A stretch of DNA of 64,000 nt from Pachyseris speciosa (taxonomy: Eukaryota > Cnidaria > Anthozoa > Scleractinia > Pachyseridae). Of the stretch, positions 1,704-10,870 are shown one piece after another (position 1 is the first letter of the stretch; the number at the start of each line of letters is the position of its first letter). The notes beneath the pieces were generated by a model. The model was not told the DNA's origin and did no database searches. It saw nothing but the letters and a program-made list of their open reading frames with translations. The stretch lies in contig JAEMWC010001107.1 in NCBI GenBank assembly GCA_016490735.1, positions 204,262 through 268,261 on the forward strand, given 5' to 3'. Position numbers and translations under genes: made by a program.

Positions 1704-1892
1704 GTAAGCAACATGTAAGCCCTCTGTAAGCTTAAATAATCCGGCGTTTTAAGCAATGTTCAAATGCCATGACCATAAACCGGGCGAAAGACGTTAACCT
1801 TGGTCAGGTGATTTTCTGAAGTGAAGAATTTGAGCTCCAACTGTTTATACAAATGCTTTCTATTTTTGAGAAGGTCTATTAGTTTTGGTTTT
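1704..1892 (+). other. Start of intron, up to the Merlin insertion
   Basis: Intron sequence following the GT donor at 1704. The last eight bases (TTGGTTTT, 1885-1892) are the left target-site duplication of the Merlin element. Confidence 0.6.
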
Positions 1893-1937
1893 GGCATAAC
1901 TACAGAATACAGGGCCAATTTTCTAGGTATATTTGTT

Positions 1938-2240
1938 GAGCCGGCTCGGTGGCTCGCCAGTCGCCTTGAATGTCTAAAGACCGAGTGGCTCGGTGGCTCG
2001 CCAGTCAGTAGTCTTTACGTATACGTTACGCTGGCTCGGCGGCTCGCCAGTCGTTTTGAACGTCAAAAGATCGAGTGGCCCGGCGGCTCGCCAGTCGCCT
2101 TGAATGTCTAAAGACCGAGTGGCTCGGTGGCTCGCCAGTCAGTAGTCTTTACGTATACGTTACGCTGGCCCGGCGGCTCGCCAGTCGTTTTGAATGTCGA
2201 AAGATCAAGCGGCTCGGCGGCTCGCCAGTTGTCTTCGCTC
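1938..2240 (+). repeat. Left subterminal repeat array of the Merlin element
   Basis: Seven copies of the core GGCTCGGYGGCTCGCCAGTC are arranged in a higher-order unit of 134 bp (compare 1961 with 2095). The right end has the same core inverted. Such arrays usually serve as transposase-binding sites; that role is inferred here. Confidence 0.85.
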
Positions 2241-2625
2241 TATTAAAATGCAAAATTCCGATTCCAAAGACCAAGTTAAGTTCCTTTCGCTTTGTTTACC
2301 CACCAACGATTTCCTTGCGAATTGCGAATTCTCGTGTCGCCATTTTGTTTATTTTACTAGTGCCAGACTCTCCCTGATCATTTTAGGAATTCGTGTCCAG
2401 GATTGCGCTTCTTTAGGGACCAGTTCCCCTTTGGGTCAAACATTTTTTACATTGACCAACTAATACATGATCAAAATTTTATTGATCCACTACACGCTGT
2501 CACAAGGAGACAGTTTCTCTTTACATAAGATAACGGTAACAGAACTAAAATAGATGGTTTTTATGACGAAATAAATACAATCCAACTATCATGAAACATG
2601 CAGCCGCTATTACTTTGTGATAACC
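2241..2625 (-). promoter_or_regulatory. 3' flank of the transposase gene with a poly(A) signal
   Basis: Non-coding stretch between the left array and the transposase stop. On the minus strand AATAAA occurs at about 2477-2482, roughly 145 bases past the stop codon, a plausible polyadenylation signal. Confidence 0.4.
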
Positions 2626-3582
2626 TTAGTTGGGATTATACAAACTTTTAACATCATTCAAAAATGTGACAAATAAGTCCTTGTCCTTATTAACATGCCG
2701 CCACATGAACTCGGCAAGATAAGAAGAGTATTTATCCTTTCGCGTACCGAATACAGGCAAACTCACTTTCATGTGCCGCCAGTGTCCTTCAATTTTGTTC
2801 GTATTGTATCCGTCTTCATTAACAAACTCCTTTGAATGGTTCACAGTTTGATGCAAGTATCCATTTTTCTCGAAGTTGTGATATGATTTCCAGCAGTCCG
2901 AAACGATTAATGTTCCCGGCTCAATCCATTTCTTTATGATAGGCAATAGTGTTGCCTCACTCCTATCTTCCACTGCGACAAAAAAGCATCTCCTCGAATC
3001 CTCTTCTATTCCTCCGAACACCCACTGTCCTTCTACTCTGTGTCCTCTGTGATATTTCCGCTTTCCTACTTTGCTCTCGTCTATTTGAACCACTTTGCCT
3101 CCACCGCCTATCTTTTCACTTCTTTGCTGAATTGTTACTTCGCATGTTTCTCGGCAAAACATATCCCAGTCCACGGCTGTGTTGGGATTAATGTGCAGTT
3201 GTTTCTTTATCTTCTCTTGCGTTAGTCCTTCTGTCCACCAGTACGTAAACTTTAGAACCTCTTCCACGGTCAGATTACTATGTTCAAACCAGCTTCCCTT
3301 TCGGATACTGACAGTACTTTTATGGCGTTTGCCATTCGCACGTTTCCTGCACTCCCATCTGTATCCGTCCGACCTGTCCGTACAGTGTACCAGCTCCATT
3401 TCTTCATTGCAAATCGGACATGTTCGCTTAGAGGCGATCAAACCTTCATCCATTAACCATCGGATTAAAATTTCTCTGTTACAGAGTACTTTGTCTTTCA
3501 GTTCATCGTAAGTCCAGTGAAGTGTTTCTGCACCCTTTTTTCGCTGATAGCTGCCGACTCCGCTTAGCACTGAGTTCCACAC
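2626..3582 (-). CDS. Merlin (ISXO2-like DDE) transposase
   Basis: An uninterrupted 318-residue protein that would cut the element out and paste it into 8-bp targets. An N-terminal region with a zinc-ribbon-like cluster (C55, C58, C67, C78 in CPIC...HC...WEC) is followed by a helical segment (KFTYWWTEGLTQEKIKKQL) and then the RNase H-fold catalytic domain. The catalytic residues are visible: D168 in VVQIDESKVGKRKYHRG, D229 in LIVSDCWKSY and E265 in TNKIEGHWRHMK. The GQWVFGGIE motif between them is typical of ISXO2/IS1595 transposases. Length is normal for Merlin. The first ATG of the open frame is used; no intron is needed. With intact ends, target duplication and catalytic triad, this copy may be young. 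The gene diverges from the ATPase gene across a 530-bp gap that probably holds both promoters. Confidence 0.9.
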   Translation of the reverse strand: MWNSVLSGVGSYQRKKGAETLHWTYDELKDKVLCNREILIRWLMDEGLIASKRTCPICNEEMELVHCTDRSDGYRWECRKRANGKRHKSTVSIRKGSWFEHSNLTVEEVLKFTYWWTEGLTQEKIKKQLHINPNTAVDWDMFCRETCEVTIQQRSEKIGGGGKVVQIDESKVGKRKYHRGHRVEGQWVFGGIEEDSRRCFFVAVEDRSEATLLPIIKKWIEPGTLIVSDCWKSYHNFEKNGYLHQTVNHSKEFVNEDGYNTNKIEGHWRHMKVSLPVFGTRKDKYSSYLAEFMWRHVNKDKDLFVTFLNDVKSLYNPN

Positions 3583-4112
3583 TCTTTCGTTTTCATACTA
3601 CAACCTGCCTGAAAGCCAATAGTTCGATACACTTTCCCATTGCGTCCACAGCTCAACATTTTCGTCTCAACGCTTCTGTAACTTCGAATTCGAGGGTAAA
3701 TTCAGTTAATTTACTCTGAGTAACTCGACGTGTCATCGAAAAACATTACTTTGACAACGCTTTAACATAACAAATGGCTCACCTTAACGTTTCGCTAATT
3801 ATTAATCACCACTTTGAAAACGCTTCATAGACAAATCAATGTCTCACCTTTGGATTGGGTAATTATAAGTAAACGTAAAACATGTATGTTGATTACACCT
3901 GCACAGAAACGCACCGCAAAATTATACCCGCGCGCCTTTTATTGATCGACAAAAACTATGCTTTTGTTTTATATAGAAAACCCCTTTGTGGCTTATGCCG
4001 CCTACATGCAATTAAAACATCCCAATGGACCGCCAATCATTTCTCCTTTCATTATCAACACTGCTATCCACTTTACTCGTTCATTCCATCGTCTGACTCG
4101 TGAACGAGCAAC
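3583..4112. promoter_or_regulatory. Divergent intergenic region of the Merlin element
   Basis: A 530-bp stretch between the transposase start (minus) and the ATPase start (plus). No convincing TATA box. The plus-strand frame of the ATPase is closed by TGA at 4101-4103 just before its ATG at 4113, which fixes that ATG as the likely start unless an upstream exon exists. Confidence 0.4.
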
Positions 4113-6062
4113 ATGTCGAATCCACTTCTACGTCTATCCCGCCAAAATGAAGTTACCTGGGCGTCCTTTCATCGCCGGATTGCAGGAATGACATTCGATT
4201 ACTCGAGAATGTTTTCTGAACCGGTCTTCAAGTTCCTTAAAGTGCACCTAACCCCAAAAAATTTTTTTCGCTTAAATAAATCTTTACACCTGTTCGAAAC
4301 ACACTGCGCCTCTTTGCGTCTTTTTAAACCAAATCTTGTCTTTTTATAGGCTGTAAAAGTTACGAATCATCTGTCCCACGACCGAGCTAATAAGAGGCAT
4401 GGGTCTATTCCTTACATGACGTCACAAACTGCTTTGCATGCATGTTTACAAAGACTTAATGCGATGGAAATCGGTTTGTGACGTCATGTAAGGAGTAGAC
4501 CCATGCCCCTTACTAGCTCGGTCGTGGGACAGATGATGACTAAATTTCGTAACTTTTGCAGCCTATAAAAAGTCAATATTTGGTTTTAAAAGACTCAAAA
4601 CGGCGCAATATGTTTCGTACAGATGCAAAGATTTATTTAAGCGAAAACAATTTTTTGGGGTTAGGTGCACTTTAACAAAAAGTCCCAAGAACTTGGAAGT
4701 TCCATTGGCTATGTAGTGCCCTCGCTGTTAACATCAACAGCGTACATCTTAGCCACTAACGACGCCACTTTCCAAATTGGCACACATTTGCAGCCACTTA
4801 ACCTGTACACCATGATGGTCGGACACCCGGGAACCGGCAAATCGCCAGCAATAGAATCCATCCTCCGCGCCCTCAAAGACATGGAGTGTATTCCAAAAGA
4901 AACCGTTGTCAGCGCTACAACATCGTCTGGGCTAGTGAAAAACCTGTCAAAGCAGGGAAAATCATTCATCGCATCCCCAGAACTGTTTGACGTGGTAAAC
5001 AAACTGCTAAAAAATGATGAAGAGAACGGGAGTGGTGACGTACAACTACTTTGTAAGCTGTGGAGTGGAGAAGCGGCCTCATATCATTTTGCCACTGAAT
5101 CCACCCGCGAGATAGATGGCAACACTCCATTCAGCATTTTGGGCGCCTCTCAAATTCAAAACGCCGCGTCGCTGTTCTATAGAATGGACAAAGGACATGG
5201 CCTCCTCGATAGATTTCTCATTTTAGTACCCTTTGCCCTCAAGCCAACACCTCAAAGTGAAGAAGAAGCCGCCACTTATTTGAGCCCGGCTCTGCCTTTC
5301 CGTGATTTTAAACCCTTCTTCAGTGCAGTCGCCGTCTCACACAAAAATCTGACCAGAACCTATTCATTGGGTCCACCGGCCGCGGAAAGTTACCGAAAAC
5401 TAAAAACCGACCACGTCAATGAAGTGAACAGAGCCATTGAAAACGGCGATGTGCCACCCAAGTCAAAGGGAGCAGACCTTGTAGTCAGAGTTGCAGTGGC
5501 CATCAGCACCATCGATCACTTCATTTCAGCGTTACTTGAAAATGAAGCACCAACCGATCCGCCAGAGAAAATTTCACAAGAGAGTTTTGACACGGCCGTC
5601 CTCTACGTCCAACACCTGCATGAACACAAAGAAATGTTTGCAGACTTTGTAAAGGAAATTACAACCCCGTCAACTGAACAGCCGAGGACTCAGCCAAGTA
5701 CCGCAGACATCAAGGCAGCCATTCTTCGTTTTCCAGGCCGCGTAGTCACCTTCCAAGCCTTCAAGAAATATTCACCACGGCGACTACGAAGTGTACAAAA
5801 ACAAGAATACGATCAATGCCTTCAAGCCATCACCGCCTTTGGAACTGTAGTCGAGTTAAGAGTTCCTCGATGCGCTCAAAAGTTGCGAATATTCATCAAA
5901 AAGCCAGTAGCAACCATTCAACCATGGCCTACCAATGCCCCATGCAGTCCAGAAGATTATGCCCAGAAAATAGCTGAACCAATGAACAGCCTTATTACTC
6001 CAAACATTCAAAATGCGCTAGTTAACGCTGGGCATATTACGCAGGAGGACATTACGGGCTAG
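4113..6062 (+). pseudogene. DUF3987-like P-loop ATPase cargo gene of the Merlin element, split by a MITE
   Basis: Two coding blocks, 4113-4240 and 4676-6062, flank a 431-bp MITE. Removing the MITE with one TTAA copy joins them in frame (...VFKFL-N-KKSQELGSS...), giving about 504 codons. The protein has a predicted P-loop at 4821-4844 (GHPGTGKS) preceded by the hydrophobic strand LNLYTMMV. Further on are a segment resembling a Walker B/sensor region (KLWSGEAASYHF, then FSILGASQIQ) and GLLDRFLILVPF. That order and spacing are typical of DUF3987 (YfjI-like) proteins known from phages and integrative elements, where they are presumed DNA-associated ATPases; the biochemical role is not established. 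C-terminal to this is a helical/winged-helix-like part. In the present copy, the MITE makes the N-terminal block run into a stop at about 4349. A start inside the MITE arm (ATG 4665) could still give a 465-residue protein with the P-loop. Confidence 0.72.
4241..4671. mobile_element. Foldback MITE with TTAA target duplication
   Basis: The two arms, about 190 bp each, are imperfect inverse complements: outer ends AGTGCACCTAACCCC and GGGGTTAGGTGCACT, inner ends near GACGTCACAAAC / GTTTGTGACGTC, with a spacer of about 45 bp. TTAA sits on both sides (4237-4240, 4672-4675). TTAA duplication points to piggyBac- or Kolobok-type mobilisation; the terminal bases are not diagnostic. No coding capacity. 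Confidence 0.88.
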
Positions 6063-6567
6063 AAAACTCATTTACGAACTGAACTGTGAACTTTTCTGCT
6101 TTATTCATTGAACTTTACTCCACACGAGTAAGATAATTGTAATTGACATTCACAATATTACACAGTACTGCCATTTGATATTTCAATTGTTTACAACATG
6201 CAACAAATCACTGAACAGTCAAAGCTTTAATAGTGGATCATCGATTTCATGTGAACGCAATCATCATAACATTAAGTGATCATTTTTGTAAGTTATAGTT
6301 GTCATTTAAGATCGAATGAGTATTTTCATGAAACAGAGTTTCATTTCATGTATAAAATGAATTTCGGAATCGGTCAAAACCATTAAATAATCACAGAAAG
6401 TAAACATTGGTGTATGTAACACAGCTGCTTTCTCTGGCCAAAATTTGACTCTGTAAATAAACAGTTTTAGTTAACAAAGTCAATTCTTCAATTATATTAA
6501 GATCTACTGGCACAGTTCCCAGAGAAAAGAAACGAAAGTTCAATAGCACGACCGATGGACTAAATTA
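6063..6567 (+). other. 3' flank of the ATPase gene
   Basis: AT-rich, no open frame. An AATAAA near 6454 could serve as poly(A) signal for the ATPase transcript. Confidence 0.4.
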
Positions 6568-6975
6568 TATACCTTACTCGTTCTTTAAACACTTCACGCG
6601 ACTTCCGAGCCGGCGAGCCGCCGAGCCACTAAAATGTATACCTTACTCGTTCTTTAAACACTTTACGCGACTGCCGAGCCGGCGAGCCGCCGAGCCACTA
6701 AAATATATACCTTACTCGTTCTTTAAACACTTCACGCGACTGCCGAGCCGGCGAGCCGCCGAGCCACTAAAATATATACCTTACTCGTTCTTTAAACACT
6801 TAACGCGACAGCCAGCCGGCGAGCCGCCGAGCCACTAAAATATATACCTTACTCGTTCTTTAAACACTTCACGCGACTGCCGAGCCGGCGAACCGCCGAG
6901 CCACTAAAATGTATACCCTACTCGTTCTTTAAACACTTTACGCGACTGCCGAGCCGGCGAGCCAGCCCAAATAAT
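6568..6975 (-). repeat. Right subterminal repeat array of the Merlin element
   Basis: Six units of about 69 bp. Each has the phrase CTTACTCGTTCTTTAAACAC followed by GCGACTGCCGAGCC and GGCGAGCCGCCGAGCC. The GC-rich core is the reverse complement of the core in the left array, so the two ends are functionally symmetrical although their spacer sequences differ. Confidence 0.87.
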
Positions 6976-7021
6976 AAACCGGAGAAATTGGCCCTGTATT
7001 CTGTAGTTGCTCCTTGGTTTT

Positions 7022-9072: not shown

Positions 9073-10494
9073 GTAGGATCTCAATGGATGAATTGTCTTG
9101 CTAGTCATAAATTAACACATTTGCACAATGAAAGCTGTAGTAAATACTGTCACTTCCAGCAGTATCATTGAATTATTACATTTTTGTGACTACTGCGCTT
9201 GTGCAAGTAGTCTCCATTGCCATTGTCTGACTTTCCGAAAGTAAGTAAGTAACAATAGAATATGCTTTGGAGCCAATCAGCGCATATGTTGTGGTCTCTC
9301 GCGAACACTGCGTATTAACGATGATTTGGCGATGGTCCCCAATGACAAACGAAAATCTCGGCCGCCTCGTGAAGTGATTTTACTGCCATCATGATTGCGT
9401 TACGTGATGTTGGAAGGTTTCAAGTTTCTTTTGACATACATACATAAAAAAAATTATGTTTATAATTTACAGCCAAACTTCCAGCTTGGCAGTTCATCAA
9501 AAAAGCCGATCAAACTTGTTGGTATTCAGTGTCGGTGAAAGCTTGAAGCAAGTGGAATATTAAATAAAAACAAGACACCGTGGCAATAAAACAGCAATTA
9601 AATTGTAGTTGTAATCGCAGTTTCTTCGGTTGTTTTTCACGGGATTCATCTTTTTCCATTTTCGCAGTAAAGAGCAAAGTAAATAAGATCCACTGAAGAT
9701 GATCAAGAAAGAAAAGTTGATTTCTACAGCAAATCATCAAGTATAAAATAGTGATCTCTCCGTTGAATGTTCCGGCATTTTGAGGCTGGATTTTAAATAT
9801 TCAATTTTGTTGTGTGATCTGGTAACTTGTCTTTTGTTTTTCGGAACAATGAACTACATAGCAAAGGTATAAGCATGAATAACAAAAGTAAACACGTGCA
9901 TCAAATACGCATGTCGACACGTGCGTTTCAAGATGCGTATACGCAACAAACGTGCGTGTCCTTTGCATGTGCGTAGGAGACATTTCTGCACAGCACTGTA
10001 CATGTATGCAAATTTAATAGTGTACTGTTTTCAACACGGAAGATGAAAATTTGTCCTTCTTCCAGTGGTTTTTGCTGCTCTCACTAACATCTTCAATCAA
10101 TTTTAATTATACTAAAGACTTAAAAAAAAATAGCAGGAGTACATTCGGTAAAAGTTTCAGTGCAAAATATTACAATCGTATAGGCCATACTGGAATGTAA
10201 TTCAATATTCTGTTCTATGCGACTCCTTCCACTATACGCTGTATTTCTGTAAACAATGAAAGATTTTCATCCATTAAGGTTTTGAATACTGTAGTAAATA
10301 AATCAAAATTGCTCCAATCGGGCTATAAATTGAAAGCTTTACAAATATAGTGGATGGTAATTTGTAACTCTTGTTTATAAATCAATGCTCACACACACTC
10401 ACAACAGCAAAATGTTGAAAAGCATTAATTTTTTGTCCTAAATTCCTGAGGATTCCCGGGTTCCATGATATACATGCACAGTAATTTTTAAAGA

Positions 10495-10870
10495 GTTATT
10501 TTAACTCCAAAAGTGGAGTTAAAATTTTAGGTTAAATATAACCCCTTTTTGGGGGTTATTTTAACTCCCTTTTTTAACTCCTTTTTAAGGGTTATAATGA
10601 CTCCAGTGTGGGAGTCACTTTAACTCTGCAAAAGGAGTTATTTAAACTCCATAAGGGAGTTACTGTAACTCCAAATGTGGAGTTAAAATGTTAGGTTAAA
10701 TATAACTCTTTTTGGGGGGTCATTTTAACTCCCATTTTTAACTCCAATTCTGGAGTTGTATTAGCTCCAACAAGGGAGTCATTTTAACTCTGCCCCATAA
10801 AAGAGTAGAGTTATTTCAACTCCATAATCAGGGTTATAGTCACTCCAGCATTAGAGGTAAAGTAACTCCA
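10495..10870. repeat. Left subterminal TAACTCC/GGAGTTA array
   Basis: About twenty degenerate units in which the palindrome GGAGTTA-n-TAACTCC alternates with AAAATAACTCC-like spacers. The same design occurs at the other end of the element. Confidence 0.8.

Follow-up and report, generated by a model that had tools for sequence, protein, structure and literature searches.

A Merlin-superfamily DNA transposon of 5121 bp was identified in the window, i.e. the whole stretch of 64,000 nucleotides of Pachyseris speciosa DNA analysed here. It belongs to a family in which two head-to-head genes, encoding a DDE transposase and a DUF3987 ATPase, travel jointly. The explanation that we favor overall, and hold to be rather likely, is a two-gene Merlin family with an MCM-like motor helping the transposase at repeat-bearing ends. 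The features of the window copy are as follows.

1893..7013: whole transposon, 5121 bp, with inverted ends and a flanking 8-bp duplication
1885..1892: left target-site duplication TTGGTTTT, same 8 bp at 7014-7021
7014..7021: right target-site duplication TTGGTTTT, same 8 bp at 1885-1892
1893..1921, plus strand: left terminal inverted repeat GGCATAACTACAGAATACAGGGCCAATTT, 29 nt, core common to the genome copies
6985..7013, minus strand: right terminal inverted repeat GGAGCAACTACAGAATACAGGGCCAATTT, inward reading, 29 nt
1942..2229, plus strand: left subterminal array, 7 x 16-mer GGCTCGGCGGCTCGCC with 0-1 mismatch (TRF and motif scan)
6559..6963, minus strand: right subterminal array, 69-bp period, 16-mer GGCTCGGCGGCTCGCC on the opposite strand (TRF and motif scans)
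2626..3582, minus strand: Merlin transposase ORF, DDE_Tnp_IS1595, 318 aa from GTG (PF12762, NF033547)
3079-3081, minus strand: catalytic D168 of the transposase ORF
2896-2898, minus strand: catalytic D229 of the transposase ORF
2788-2790, minus strand: catalytic E265 of the transposase ORF
3583..3659, minus strand: former N-terminal part of the transposase, out of frame here (344 aa in C459, C301 and C92; P0080, P0081)
4113..4240, plus strand: 5' part of the ATPase gene (MSNPLLRLSRQNE...FKFL), from ATG 4113, upstream of the insertion
4241..4671: nested hairpin insertion, 431 bp, TTAA at 4237-4240 and 4672-4675
4672..6062, plus strand: main part of the DUF3987 ATPase gene (ORF 4665-6062, 465 aa listed; PF13148)
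4821..4844, plus strand: Walker A motif GHPGTGKS
5700..5900, plus strand: predicted winged-helix-like C-terminal region (P0002 residues 384-450; secondary structure of the full P0002 model)

The duplications and inverted ends had been reported in a preliminary description of this DNA, and both were found again: the 8-bp copies are exact, and the 29-nt repeats bound the element. GG is present at both termini (GGCATAACTACAG.. and GGAGCAACTACAG..). Terminal GG is a criterion for Merlin ends (PMC8101967, in part), and a target-site duplication of 8 or 9 bp was taken as the duplication criterion. The element thus shows the DDE_Tnp_IS1595 domain, the D-D-E triad, an 8-bp duplication and GG inverted ends, the features by which Merlin membership was judged; the transposase-only layout, usual in described members and non-defining, is not that of the window family.

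Profile searches assigned both genes. The transposase matched PF12762 (DDE_Tnp_IS1595; E 1e-21, 78 bits, cut-off 27) and NF033547 (E 2.1e-28, 99.7 bits, cut-off 75). It had been called intact, with D168, D229 and E265; the triad and the domain match were confirmed, but the frame is broken near its start. Relatives continue upstream, and here that segment lies in another frame and is followed by a stop. The divergent P-loop protein, described before as DUF3987-like with GHPGTGKS, matched PF13148 above the curated cut-off of 27 (E 3e-17, 63.3 bits), and its relative P0002 reached 86 bits. The Walker A lysine is present in 55/55 rows of alignment A2 having a residue at that place. The same or a like start of the ATPase (MSNP...) was found in P0002-P0004, P0006 and the C459 copy. 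The 431-bp insertion splits the ATPase gene of the window; C459 and C301 are uninterrupted across the site. A protein search yielded 79 ATPase homologues. Corals and other anthozoans supply the best named relatives. Named relatives come from Desmophyllum, Stylophora, Actinia, Dendronephthya and Paramuricea, further ones from Porites, Exaiptasia, Actinostola and the sea cucumber Holothuria leucospilota. A phage origin of the ATPase was rejected, since just two weak matches to phage records were obtained at ~20% identity and a scan of viral contigs gave no relative.

Just inside each end, GC-rich arrays of the 16-mer GGCTCGGCGGCTCGCC are arranged in inverted orientation; these had been overlooked before. 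The left copies start at 1943, 1987, 2033, 2077, 2121, 2167 and 2211. The right array contains eight matches with ≤2 mismatches, two pairs of which overlap. Furthermore, gene-less derivatives were detected. One of 705 bp at C185 is flanked on both sides by the duplication GGAATTTT and has kept both ends and array motifs. Another of 386 bp consists of the left 263 bp and approximately the right 116 bp, array motifs included; its outer end is altered and the duplication is absent. It occurs on three contigs with identical flanks and therefore likely represents one event. The derivatives fit a need in cis for ends and arrays, and do not indicate which protein binds them.

Ten loci with an ATPase identity of about 93% or more were assigned to the family. 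Both ends and perfect 8-bp duplications were found in seven of these ten copies, at six sites (the window, C459, C92, C1818, C421, C309 and C844, with C309 and C844 being one site). C301 and C499 had no right end within the stretch read, and C1181 had no duplication. All seven copies with ends and duplication show the divergent two-gene order, with both genes or their remnants in place: of the ATPase, C421 (3579 bp) retains just the final third, and both genes are interrupted by stops in C309 and C844. Both frames are open in C459 and C301, encoding an ATPase of 503 aa and a transposase of 344 aa. An inverted-repeat pair around the ATPase alone was not detected in the four copies tested (C459, C92, C1818 and C301). 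Among the 25 longest inverted pairs listed for the window, the one that spans the ATPase, element ends excluded, begins within the transposase ORF. An independent ATPase element nested with its own ends, which the preliminary description had considered, was therefore rejected: copies that have both ends share one layout, and in the four copies tested the ATPase alone is not enclosed by an inverted pair. The other observation named there as refuting, a consistent lack of the ATPase in related Merlin copies, was not made either, since related copies with both ends carry both genes or their remnants.

The association of the two genes was analyzed across the 984-Mb assembly. Protein searches gave 128 transposase rows, merged into 102 loci, and 92 ATPase rows, merged into 65 loci; the best candidates were scored, and absences in the genome searches refer to the best-scoring candidates. 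An ATPase was located ≤6 kb from the transposase at 31/102 loci, all of them divergent, with ~0.08 expected by chance; these pairings comprise 30 distinct ATPase loci, C82 being counted twice. Pairing was found at 9/11 loci with a transposase identity of at least 90%, 0/5 at 70-90%, 20/49 at 55-70%, 2/9 at 48-55% and 0/28 below 48%, the clade split at 48% being picked after this table had been seen. A DUF3987 gene was found within 6 kb of 0/80 further PF12762 places (150 of 225 PF12762 candidates scored). For the more distant Merlin-type places in this genome the overall figure was 0/108. The ATPase is associated with a single clade of Merlin transposases. When the count was restricted to loci having a stop-free row within a 300-400 aa frame, an ATPase was present at 13/14 clade loci and at 0/4 outside (Fisher p 0.0016; loci counted by eye, some being near-identical copies). 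The exception, C194, lacks an ATPase; its one stop-free row covers 43 residues within a frame of 309 aa.

Several counts speak against the favored explanation. No ATPase was found ≤6 kb from 43 of the 74 clade transposase loci, of which 28 align over <700 nt; the same holds for 10 of the 25 clade loci with at least 900 aligned nt. Conversely, 32 of the 65 ATPase loci have no transposase within 12 kb, and 30 of these 32 align over <1000 nt. Many of the unpaired loci align partially, and some stretches consist of N. The genome additionally harbors another Merlin lineage, which is transposase-only over the stretches read: C279 and C1701 share 2.03 kb with inverted ends and one transposase ORF. 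Across the 4 kb read for each of C279, C1701 and C387, no ATPase match was obtained, and no duplication was detected at C279 or C1701. Moreover, of 35 PF13148 matches, 14 are absent from the P0001 list and have no Merlin transposase within 12 kb. C1256 and C41 belong to such other DUF3987 families; 10-11 kb of each was read, and the Merlin-type places listed include none closer than 12 kb to them. Comparison of the homologue lists of the ATPase (79) and the transposase (118; best 120 of 1729) gave one candidate shared contig of 1,000,656 nt, which can serve as a hint at most.

The two-gene layout recurs in elements with ATPases of about 40-65% likeness. It is also present in L001, a contig of 4876 bp that is assigned to a Lentisphaeria MAG. 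L001 has a GT-AG intron in the gene and was apparently misfiled in a bacterial MAG. Its transposase shows 63% identity and its ATPase 43% (second exon 30%); it carries a 75-bp tandem array, and its right end matches as well, the left end lying beyond the contig. A second family in the same genome, represented by C1614 and C2 (97% alike), repeats the layout with its own ends GGCTAGATTCTAGAATACC and GGAGCGATTCTAGAATACC. C2 is flanked by the 8-bp duplication CGACCGCA, with flank likeness extending a few bases further; no exact duplication was found at the ends of C1614. The array motif of this family, TGCTCCCGCAGTCCCGCAGTCA, has 22 bp and gave 3 matches on the left and 13 or 8 on the right at ≤4 mismatches, some overlapping. 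The motif of the window family was absent from C1614 and TGCTCCCGCAGTCCCGCAGTCA was absent from C459; 20 shuffles of each motif gave no match either. In both families, the inverted arrays lie inside both ends, and their 16- or 22-bp motif is specific to the family.

Amino-acid distances of ATPase and transposase were correlated over nine elements (r = 0.86, Mantel p 2e-4, 5000 permutations; 34/36 pairs with enough codons, the near-identical groups C1614/C2/C598 and C1016/C82 included). C228 is incongruent: its transposase is 84% identical to those of L001 and C1016, its ATPase 49-51%. When L001 was compared with C1016, synonymous change was saturated, and dN amounted to 0.17 over 239 ATPase codons and to 0.10 over 304 transposase codons, including one stop. 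Judged from these substitutions, both proteins look constrained over the older splits. In the young family, dN/dS against C459 ranged from 0.12 to 1.37 on few differences, and selection is therefore not shown there.

The fold of the ATPase was predicted and compared with known structures. All 50 matches listed in each of two fold comparisons were MCM-type. Foldseek TM-scores were low, at 0.27-0.40 by query length; five MCM alignments among the matches listed reach model residue 451-453. TnsC, IstB and MuB were absent among the 50 matches listed per comparison. The predicted model contains the AAA+ core of the MCM fold. A beta-hairpin (E177-179, E187-189) directly precedes the sensor-1-like strand (E194-202) in the model, and a pre-sensor-1 beta-hairpin is a mark of helicase-type AAA+ proteins. 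The strand at the Walker B place terminates in S-x-E, the usual Walker B ending being D-E. A DRF motif, which we take to be Arg-finger-like, would be a further likeness to MCM. The winged-helix-like call for the C-terminus comes from the full P0002 model; the domain modelled alone gave a pLDDT of 43.7. When the PDB sequences were searched with profile A2 (E≤10), five weak matches were obtained, none of them MCM. With no MCM found by sequence and low TM-scores, the helicase reading rests on the predicted fold. We predict from it that the DUF3987 product forms a ring and acts on DNA as an MCM-like AAA+ motor.

The preliminary description had suggested that the ATPase may assist transposition. 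This still has to be put conditionally, and co-divergence and purifying selection support it; in our view the ATPase is quite probably a dedicated transposition factor. According to the model, it would assemble as a hexamer. The arrays may recruit it through its winged-helix-like C-terminus or through the transposase, and ATP would power the opening or remodeling either of the element ends or of the complex between transposase and DNA, the outcome being efficient excision and insertion. By analogy, the scheme would resemble the transposase-plus-AAA+ pairs of Tn7, Mu and IS21, but built on an AAA+ fold of the helicase type. The fold prediction, the arrays and the co-divergence were obtained as results, whereas ring formation, binding to the arrays and the transposition step are inferred. 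The mechanism of a motor at the ends, as worded here, is evenly balanced between right and wrong.

Other roles of the ATPase have to be weighed against this. It could act in target capture, as a polymer on target DNA like IstB, TnsC or MuB that activates the transposase and does not act at the ends. The inverted terminal arrays recall the multiple transposase sites at Tn7 and Mu ends. On the other hand, the pre-sensor-1 hairpin of the model is a helicase-type feature, and the matches listed in the fold comparisons are MCM-type, a result in which the absence of IstB and TnsC does not amount to exclusion. In favor of target capture, a transposase and an AAA+ partner within a single element form the layout of IS21, Tn7 and Mu (PMC11208146, in part). 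Altogether, we consider target capture unlikely. The ATPase might instead drive copying of the element, as an excised circle or by replicative transposition, resulting in more copies. In bacterial mobile elements, DUF3987 domains occur as fusions with primases and are predicted replicative helicases (PMC5862659, in part), and the MCM-like predicted fold would suit this role as well. However, there is no third large ORF in the element, hence no primase, polymerase or Rep gene is apparent, and the family is small, with its ten ATPase loci at about 93% identity or more. Such a replication motor appears distinctly improbable.

A passenger gene, with a role such as host benefit or silencing escape outside the transposition machinery, would be in keeping with the many clade loci that lack the ATPase, with the Merlin lineage that manages without it, and with the DUF3987 families that occur far from Merlin transposases (the 14/35 PF13148 matches). 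The constant divergent layout, the co-divergence, the constraint over deep splits and the ATPase at 13/14 clade loci with a stop-free row argue against it, and we rate it slightly lower again than the replication motor. That an unrelated ATPase element was inserted by chance into a Merlin copy, which later multiplied, is already contradicted and hardly credible: the window copy does carry one nested insertion, the 431-bp TTAA element, but the layout recurs with ATPases about 40-65% alike and in L001, and in the four copies tested the ATPase alone is unflanked by an inverted-repeat pair. The two-gene Merlin family with an MCM-like motor thus remains the explanation that we favor.

Dedicated AAA+ partners of transposases are known in bacterial elements and phages. 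If our explanation is true, an MCM-like partner in an animal DDE family would be the same solution reached with another motor. It would give animal DUF3987 a concrete, testable function, and the DUF3987 genes that are annotated as hypothetical in corals and in a sea cucumber may actually come from transposons. Additionally, a two-protein transposition system with defined ends would be on offer.

Compared with known systems, the element resembles Merlin, the eukaryotic relatives of IS1016/IS1595, in its DDE_Tnp_IS1595 D-D-E transposase, GG ends and 8-bp duplications (PMC8101967, in part). It differs in being 5 kb long, in having an ATPase gene as a divergent second gene and in the long arrays inside its ends. 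The transposase-only Merlin lineage of the same genome measures about 2.0 kb. A term search of the main text of PMC8101967 gave no mention of an ATPase, helicase, accessory gene or second ORF. The preliminary description was aware of no Merlin lineage with such cargo; in agreement with this, no description of a Merlin element with a DUF3987 gene was found in the open full-text (PMC) literature searched. The ATPase shares with the DUF3987 proteins (PF13148) of phages and integrative elements a Pfam match above cut-off and the P-loop; unlike these, it resides inside a eukaryotic DDE transposon, lacks a primase fusion and has a winged-helix-like C-terminus. With MCM helicases it would share the predicted AAA+ fold, the pre-sensor-1 hairpin and the Arg-finger-like DRF; it differs from them by the lack of a detectable sequence match, low Foldseek TM-scores, S-x-E in the position of Walker B and a size of ~500 aa.

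Accessory enzyme genes beside a DDE/D transposase are also carried by Kolobok, Academ, Zisupton/KDZ and further DNA transposons of eukaryotes, which are not known to encode a DUF3987 or MCM-like motor. KolobokP is an example of such an element (PMC9587614, in part). Tn7, Mu and IS21 are similar in that an AAA+ partner gene lies beside the transposase within the same ends. The ends of Tn7 and Mu both carry repeated sites. These systems differ from the present element in transposase family, in apparent AAA+ type, in its divergent genes and in its eukaryotic host. It is conceivable, though we lean slightly against it, that an animal transposon lineage recruited a replicative-helicase-like AAA+ motor, of another AAA+ clade than those of the bacterial systems, as a fixed transposition subunit and that family-specific binding arrays at the two ends changed along with the proteins, which would make the family a eukaryotic counterpart of Tn7, Mu and IS21.

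The following features of the window lie within the ATPase gene of the Merlin element and outside the element, respectively:

4241-4671: hairpin MITE of 431 bp, inserted within the ATPase coding sequence, with TTAA on either side
10493-10793: tandem repeat with a period of 164 bp, containing nested 22-bp units which are palindromes like GAGTTACTGTAACTCC

The TTAA flanks of the MITE correspond to a piggyBac-type target.

Elsewhere in the genome, L067, L068, and L069 together with 24 pattern matches starting GGCTAAACTACAG constitute a group of ends belonging to a related, diverged kind. The only complete copy read in this group, located at C185 (L068), is gene-less; its mobilisation probably occurs in trans. 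At another place, C228 (L038), the transposase clusters with those of C1016 and of the two-gene contig L001; the ATPase does not, and this mismatch possibly reflects either an exchange of genes between elements or a merged locus.

L001 (DDLT01000139.1) is assigned to the MAG of a Lentisphaeria bacterium. It contains an intron, a Merlin gene, and a DUF3987 gene and thus looks like animal transposon DNA; therefore, contamination of the MAG is likely. The protein relative P0294, named after a Gammaproteobacteria MAG, may be a second such case.

The same genome harbors further DUF3987 families at C41 (L008, L058, L059), C1256 (L005, L056, L057), and C2199 (L004). Among the places listed, no Merlin-type place was found near these families. 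At C41, the main exon is separated by about 3.8 kb from an ORF which, from motifs judged by eye, we take to be OTU protease-like with a CXC-like cysteine region. Hence, a second kind of mobile element may use DUF3987.
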